A stretch of DNA of 35,417 nucleotides from Subtercola sp. Z020 (lineage in GTDB: Bacteria; Actinomycetota; Actinomycetes; Actinomycetales; Microbacteriaceae). The stretch covers positions 1 through 35,417 of the forward strand of contig NZ_PSTT01000029.1 in NCBI RefSeq assembly GCF_002931235.1. Reading direction: 5' to 3'. The notes beneath the pieces were generated by a model. The model saw nothing but the letters and a program-made list of their open reading frames with translations. It ran no database searches and was not told where the DNA came from. Within the stretch, counting starts at the first letter, position 1, and each line of letters begins with the position of its first letter. Positions 21,785-21,927 of the stretch are shown piece by piece. The position numbers were made by a program, and so were the translations under genes.

Positions 21785-21790
21785 TAGCCT
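21785..21790 (+). promoter_or_regulatory. -10 box of the leuA leader
   Basis: TAGCCT begins 4 nt after the mprF-like stop and is followed by a 6-nt gap and the GTG of the leader peptide. Transcription probably starts at that GTG, so even the leader peptide would be translated leaderless. Confidence 0.6.
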
Positions 21791-21796
21791 GACAGG

Positions 21797-21841
21797 GTGT
21801 TCTTCGGTCTTCTGCTTCTTAGCTGCCGCGACGGGTCCTAA
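21797..21841 (+). CDS. Leucine-rich leader peptide of leuA
   Basis: A 15-codon reading frame GTG...TAA encodes [14 protein letters not shown]. Four consecutive leucine codons (CTT CTG CTT CTT, 21809-21820) come just before a region that can fold in two ways. Three of the four are CTT, a codon that is uncommon in this GC-rich genome, which would slow ribosomes further when charged leucyl-tRNA is scarce. Leader-peptide control of leuA is known in actinobacteria. The frame is too short for normal gene finders but is well supported by position, composition and the promoter spacing. Confidence 0.8.
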
Positions 21842-21870
21842 CCGGCCTTCCCCGTCGCGGAGTTCCGCGT
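21826..21870 (+). promoter_or_regulatory. leuA attenuator-like switch
   Basis: CCGCGACGGG (21826-21835, inside the leader peptide frame) pairs perfectly with CCCGTCGCGG (21852-21861). The end of the second arm, CGCGG (21857-21861), can instead pair with CCGCG (21866-21870) over a 4-nt loop. The two stems are mutually exclusive. A ribosome stalled on the Leu codons covers bases near the first arm, while one at the stop codon covers the rest of it, which is the logic of attenuation. No T-tract follows, so control may act on translation or through Rho. Confidence 0.65.
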
Positions 21871-21927
21871 GTGTTCACCCCCACGTCGTCGGCTGAAAAT
21901 CACCCACAGACCGCAGGAGCACGAATC

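Follow-up and report, generated by a model that had tools for sequence, protein, structure and literature searches.

A leucine-codon leader and a ten-base-pair stem precede leuA

The window, that is, the whole stretch of 35,417 nucleotides that was analysed, carries leuA, the first leucine-synthesis gene of this (soil) bacterium, preceded by a short leader with the following parts, given in window coordinates:

21782-21790, + strand: extended -10-like element TGCTAGCCT; TANNNT lies 5-9 nt ahead of the start codon in 70/70 family leaders
21797-21841, + strand: leader ORF leuL, presumably leaderless, 14 residues plus TAA; same ORF in 70/70 family leuA upstream regions
21809-21820, + strand: Leu run CTT CTG CTT CTT, which forms the anti-SD (5') strand of the base stem and probably acts as sensor, from the pairing test and CTT enrichment
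21826-21835, + strand: 5' arm of stem A, within the leader codons for C-R-D-G (z 17.1; two-sided changes at 8/10 pairs)
21836-21850, + strand: stem A loop with the stop codon TAA (21839-21841) and the pseudoknot strand CGGCC (21843-21847, family register); stop wholly in the loop in 159/159 elements
21851-21860, + strand: 3' arm of stem A (co-variation tests)
21861-21890, + strand: spacer with an insert of ~20 nt relative to other genera (congener comparison), holding one side of a competing stem
21891-21895, + strand: likely downstream pseudoknot strand GGCTG, register uncertain in the window species (z 9.4 overall, 1.1 within the family)
21915-21919, + strand: leuA Shine-Dalgarno (SD) sequence AGGAG, 3' strand of the base stem (MFE fold, pairing test, ribosome-block folding)
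21928-23694, + strand: leuA, 2-isopropylmalate synthase (NCBIfam TIGR00970, 841 bits; NF002991, 886 bits)

A preliminary description of this site had pointed to a 14-residue frame with four Leu codons in a row, three of them the rare CTT, to a GTG start 6 nt after TAGCCT and to a 10-bp stem beginning inside the frame, and the sequence bears out all three. The frame runs from the GTG at 21797 to the TAA at 21841 with its Leu codons at 21809-21820, the hexamer TAGCCT (21785-21790) ends 6 nt ahead of the GTG, and stem A is a perfect 10-bp pairing of CCGCGACGGG (21826-21835) with CCCGTCGCGG (21851-21860); the leuA start codon is the ATG at 21928. The 149-nt leader folds with -53.7 kcal/mol, compared with -43.0 +/- 3.6 for dinucleotide shuffles (z -2.97; 0/200 shuffles as stable), and in its MFE fold the Leu codon run is paired with the leuA SD region. 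A scan of 21600-22000 found neither a T-tract nor an intrinsic terminator on the + strand, features that define the classical trp/ilv-type attenuator. Over the same interval a sigma-70 scan requiring both hexamers returned no promoter-like site, and Rfam release 15 gave no match at the gathering score in the window or in 12 related loci.

Two observations concern the surroundings of the leader. An 841-aa membrane-type ORF (19256-21781), which we take to be perhaps a lysyl-phosphatidylglycerol synthase-like protein, ends 15 nt ahead of the leader start, so that the -35 region of a leuA promoter would overlap its last codons. In the spacer at 21861-21890, inserts that differ in sequence are present in the window and in three congeners (L002-L004), with no counterpart in L005-L007 and other genera; they lengthen the distance between stem A and its likely pseudoknot partner, and short stems with the second arm of stem A are possible there.

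The leader is conserved in the family and across the class

leuA was matched in 289/299 family genomes, and the leader with its Leu run is present in 70/70 family leuA upstream regions, which comprise the 30 best and 40 chosen mostly as one per genus; a separate comparison of family leaders used 56 of these 70 sequences. A covariance model (R1), built from 46 of the 70 with the window left out, recovered the window site with E 6e-18, the next best place in the 3.5-Mb genome scoring E 0.57, and own-genome matches at this value and above were taken as chance. The model matched 289/299 family genomes, 364/393 class genomes and 80/80 named leuA loci, nearly all of which belong to Microbacteriaceae or its genera and the closest of which is from a Subtercola sp. 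with 90% LeuA identity. One match per genome was found in 7/7 genomes of the window's genus.

The -10-like element is conserved together with the ORF. TANNNT lies 5-9 nt ahead of the start codon in all 70 family leaders and in 71/89 other elements, or in 84/89 if the spacing is widened to 10 nt; 5/89 non-family elements lack it at 4-10 nt, two of them, L143 and L186, examined from a mis-set start. In the named loci, a looser pattern occurs 5-10 nt before some in-frame start in 80/80, all with a leader, and when only the first possible start is taken, a leader is found in 78 of these and TANNNT at 5-10 nt in 61. From this conserved spacing, transcription probably starts at the leader GTG, and the leader is probably leaderless, as had been proposed.

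The window leader belongs to the LEU element

An element of this kind, named the LEU element, has been described upstream of leuA in most Actinobacteria; it combines a leader peptide containing a Leu run with a pseudoknot and a base stem in which the Leu codons pair with the SD (Seliverstov et al. 2005, PMC1262725). Judged by its sequence features, the window leader is a copy of this actinobacterial element before leuA, and an ordinary one for its family: it lies upstream of leuA, its ORF has the run of Leu codons, the base stem is found in the MFE fold and in the pairing tests reported below, and the pseudoknot, strongly supported in the whole set, may be present with a register that is uncertain in the window. 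The two also share the lack of an obvious terminator, and Leifsonia xyli, from the family of the window species, was among the genomes of the 2005 analysis (PMC1262725). That work named only leuA and one transposase behind the element, whereas the present analysis covers more genomes, includes copies before leuC and leuB, and tests each helix. Seliverstov et al. favoured a protein-binding site over attenuation by a leader peptide, which they thought unlikely; according to their paper, mutations in the S. coelicolor leuA leader had some effect at odds with classical attenuation, and the conclusion drawn was that Leu-codon mutations there were without influence on regulation (PMC1262725).

Leader-peptide control of leuA is known in actinobacteria, as the preliminary description had stated, and other examples resemble the window leader. 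An RNA-seq study of S. lividans, a host from a different order of the class, reports leuL1 before leuA to be leaderless and without a typical Rho-independent terminator, like the leader studied here (PMC8079986). Neither the leader nor the leaderless start nor the SCR-x-x end is new, since leuL1 has both the start and the end. The leuA leader peptides of Corynebacterium glutamicum and C. diphtheriae share the Leu run, with four consecutive Leu codons (MNRANLLLLRRGGSQA), and are described as attenuators in the reports, in which no start site was assignable for the C. diphtheriae leader (PMC4046766, PMC5784534).

Two systems with other signals also invite comparison. Canestrari in 2020 reportedly found that mycobacterial polycysteine leaderless short ORFs respond to a single amino acid and regulate the downstream operon, and these resemble the present leader as leaderless codon-sensing ORFs but sense cysteine. 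In erm-type translational attenuators it is a drug-dependent stall of the leader ribosome that unmasks the SD, whereas here amino-acid starvation would stall the ribosome and the stalled codons themselves would be the masking strand.

Three helices co-vary, among them Leu codons with the SD

Co-variation was evaluated by comparing each sequence's pairing with itself to its pairing with partners from other elements (own-versus-cross). The set consists of 159 elements (126 leuA, 12 leuC and 21 leuB-type), 132 representatives of which were tested. Among the 95 loci L130-L144 and L152-L231, six are absent from this set: L142 (a short stretch in which a leader was seen but no gene was hit), L200 and L210 (regarded as false matches), and L167, L190 and L202 (in which the script found no leader start; L202 has a leuB match). 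Of 61 class-genome match places listed, 60 were taken in, two members of the 'other leuA' group (L131, L136) come from family genomes, and for a number of loci the leader start was assigned manually. The stem of L172 was hand-set in the co-variation test, and this locus was excluded from ribosome-block folding and pair counts.

Stem A gave a z of 17.1 with 0/2000 permutations as good, and 1571/1580 of its pairs are kept with two-sided changes at 8/10 positions; this score and these counts are biased towards the stem, since best pairing had been used to locate it. A pseudoknot between the stem A loop and RNA mostly 10-16 nt past the stem gave z 9.4 (0/2000, 132 representatives), as exemplified by GAGAGGCC with GGCCTCTC in L181, GACCGGCA with TGCCGGTC in L196, and GTCAGCC with GGCTGAC in L209. 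Inside the family the same test was not significant (z 1.1, or -0.6 by duplex energy), because little varies there, nor was it at leuC (z 1.1). The third helix, the base stem between the Leu-codon segment and the SD region, gave z -6.8 over 121 representatives (0/2000), with z -4.2 within the family (n=56, 0/2000) and z -3.5 in other leuA elements (n=53), compared with -0.4 for a control segment against the SD region; at leuC it was not significant (z -1.3, n=12). In L012, CTTCTTAGCT can be seen by eye to stand against AGCTAAGAAG, which adjoins the SD. Own-versus-cross comparison thus supports three helices: stem A, the loop-to-downstream pseudoknot and the base stem of Leu codons with the leuA SD.

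The codons themselves point in the same direction. CTT makes up 46.7% of 304 leader Leu codons in the family versus 1.7% of 1440 in 30 leuA bodies, which confirms its rarity, and it is the final leader Leu codon in 69/70 family leaders. The run of CTY codons is the anti-SD, and the rare CTT codons are best explained by a double function, in sensing and as the anti-SD strand.

Two further pairings were tried and rejected. One of them, between the 5' arm of stem A and the conserved downstream TCGTCG(T)YGGC, had looked attractive by eye in the family before testing and gave z 0.4 (696/2000 permutations as good; by duplex energy z -0.4, 674/2000); this candidate alternative hairpin may differ from the hairpin of Seliverstov et al. 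(PMC1262725). The other is the competing stem of the second arm, which the preliminary description had regarded as the switching partner. A 5-bp version, CGCGG-AGTT-CCGCG, can form in the window, part of it within the variable insert stretch, but co-variation was lacking among the 132 representatives both within 45 nt downstream (z 0.9, 408/2000) and in the adjacent form (z 0.4, 723/2000), although the mean score of the latter, 11.5, is a little above the 10.7 of base-shuffled downstream RNA. In relatives the versions are mostly short, 3-5 bp and mostly 4-5 in most of them and 6-10 bp in a few, and the leuB-type subset alone gave z 2.3 (36/2000), so a weak, conserved version of this stem may exist. 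The attenuation logic without a T-tract that had been proposed stands, but not the hairpin competition, in place of which the ribosome, the base stem and the loop pseudoknot would compete.

The base stem also bears on where control would be exerted. Transcription might instead be halted ahead of leuA by the leader structure or by Rho when leucine is plentiful, as is predicted or reported for other actinobacterial leaders (trp, ilvB), and Rho could have access to a leuA leader that is not translated. We consider this unlikely: the + strand has no terminator at 21600-22000, S. lividans leuL1 is likewise reported without one (PMC8079986), and the SD side co-varies with the Leu codons, which is expected for translation control and not for an intrinsic terminator. 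A translational output, one of the two that the preliminary description had allowed, is therefore the likely one.

Copies lie before leuC and, with exchanged sensor codons, before leuB

Two or three R1 matches were counted by hand in 182/299 family genomes. Among 15 stretches at match sites of such genomes, 12 lie upstream of leuC (L130, L132-L135, L137-L141, L143 and L144) with leuD next, and the other three comprise one leuA, one leuA paralogue and one short stretch upstream of leuA. NCBIfam identified LeuC in L132 and L130 and LeuD in L132, and VLIARLLLSGRDES and VRAPRLLLRCRGGASS are examples of the leuC-type leaders. The second LEU element, where present in family genomes, was at leuC; in the window genome no LEU-like leader was seen upstream of leuC (L232), its paralogue or leuB (L235). 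LEU elements were also observed at leuA-like genes with ~46-55% identity to LeuA of the window, most of them second copies in their genomes (L136; L169, L178, L180, L194, L196, L198 and L207).

For the class, 30 genomes were chosen for at least 2 matches. They yielded 21 elements outside leuA and leuC, 16 of which have leuB in the stretch (L161, L162, L170, L173, L181, L182, L185, L188, L191, L199, L201, L203, L205, L206, L209 and L211); four stretches had no leuB match (L171, L176, L193, L204), and the remaining one, L168, is a probable leuA copy whose Leu run lies at the end of a contig. Leaders of the leuB type, such as MLWSVRILSCRDEAR and MRSVYVLIDCRGGA, have Val-Ile-Leu sensor codons in place of the Leu run, the three amino acids occurring together in 18/20 leaders when L168 is left out. 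Compared with parts of 16 leuB ORFs, these leaders are enriched in GTA (18/29 Val codons versus 1/228), ATT (10/20 Ile codons versus 2/84) and CTT (15/32 Leu codons versus 7/269), and stem A and the pseudoknot co-vary in the 21 elements with z 6.2 and 7.3, respectively. A small ORF lies between the leuB-type element and leuB in L182, L209, L203, L181 and others (MTEEQQKAQQALQEAMDRRDNGGETGH, MYDMYPDWGPASHH). Among the literature matches listed, which leave subscription literature mostly outside, we recognised no description of the leuC or leuB forms.

Of the signs that the sensor is read by a ribosome, this natural codon swap before leuB is the strongest, and it weighs against the proposal that the LEU element is a protein-binding site rather than a codon-read attenuator. 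That proposal drew on phylogenetic co-occurrence and mutant data (Seliverstov 2005, PMC1262725), and the strong conservation of stem A and the pseudoknot over the class would suit it. The leader frame, the -10-to-start spacing and the sensor codons are nevertheless kept across the class sample, and before leuB the sensor codons become Val, Ile and Leu on an unchanged scaffold, which points to ribosome reading, so that we regard a protein-binding site as improbable.

The SCRDGS end is kept as RNA

The preliminary description had singled out the SCRDGS end of the leader for comparison across the family. This end is conserved, but its pattern of change indicates that it is so as RNA, namely as the 5' arm of stem A, and not as peptide: the wobble bases of RDGS are nearly fixed, with CGC as the Arg codon in 68/70 family leaders, whereas 9/70 have Gly, Ser, Val or Ala instead of the Asp. 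Conservation at the nucleotide level follows from the end being the stem arm. An arrest peptide, in which the amino-acid sequence of SCRDGS would stall the ribosome and for which a C-R-D/G-E/G end common across the class sample could be cited, is rejected as very improbable on this codon evidence and on stem pairs that change on both sides at 8/10 positions.

A model of leucine-responsive translational attenuation

Taken together, the observations of the preliminary description are partly confirmed and its interpretation is partly supported, and we think it probable that the leuA LEU element of this Subtercola-like Microbacteriaceae species is a leucine-responsive translational attenuator. Transcription would begin at the GTG or right beside it, with direct loading of a ribosome on the 5' end. 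In free RNA, the base stem of the Leu run with the leuA SD would close over stem A and the loop-to-downstream pseudoknot, a pairing shown by the comparison, and leuA would then stay untranslated. When charged Leu-tRNA is scarce, the ribosome would halt on the Leu codons, covering the anti-SD strand and the arm of stem A, and the SD would open. When leucine is plentiful, it would go on to the stop codon, which is six codons past the last Leu codon and inside the loop of stem A, the Leu codons would be released, and the base stem could re-form; as a further effect, Rho-dependent polarity could follow from the loss of leuA translation. The geometry of the leader is consistent with this model, as the stop codon lies wholly inside the stem A loop and at least 5 codons from the last sensor codon in 159/159 elements, so that the anti-SD would be covered by a ribosome on the Leu codons and should be accessible when the ribosome is at the stop codon.

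Folding with a ribosome-sized block, in a calculation that ignores the pseudoknot, gave graded support. In the window the predicted cost of opening the SD is 10.3 kcal/mol in free RNA, 3.9-5.9 with the block on the Leu codons and 11.7 with the block at the stop codon. Over 97 representatives, the cost relative to the stop codon was lower in 57 and higher in 24 with the third-from-last sensor codon in the A site (p 9.5e-7), lower in 43 and higher in 31 with the next one (p 0.059), and lower in 36 and higher in 39 with the last (p 0.82); single folds for the last sensor codon, with both values available in 83/97 representatives, gave 32 lower and 35 higher. A ribosome at the start codon would open the SD too (4.6 kcal/mol in the window; 45 lower and 36 higher over the 97, p 0.046), and the predicted SD-opening effect is therefore not special to the Leu codons.

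The double role of the Leu codons in translational attenuation could also explain the paradoxical S. coelicolor leuA mutants, because changing these codons would disturb both sensing and base-stem masking. Extending the reading beyond leuA, we give an even chance to the idea that the LEU element is an exchangeable, presumably leaderless scaffold placed on several leucine genes of Actinomycetes, in which the sensor codons double as the anti-SD (with pairing at leuA), the stop codon lies in the pseudoknotted loop, and the codons are swapped, from a Leu run at leuA and leuC to GTA, ATT and CTT at leuB.

This comparison brings codon-read control back into consideration for an element for which it had been set aside in 2005, and it offers a reason why rare CTT codons and the RDGS end are kept, namely that both would serve RNA pairing. 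It also provides testable helices and adds leuC and leuB as targets, with a codon swap that is able to decide the mechanism. If the exchangeable-scaffold reading is true, the leuB form would sense the three branched-chain amino acids simultaneously.
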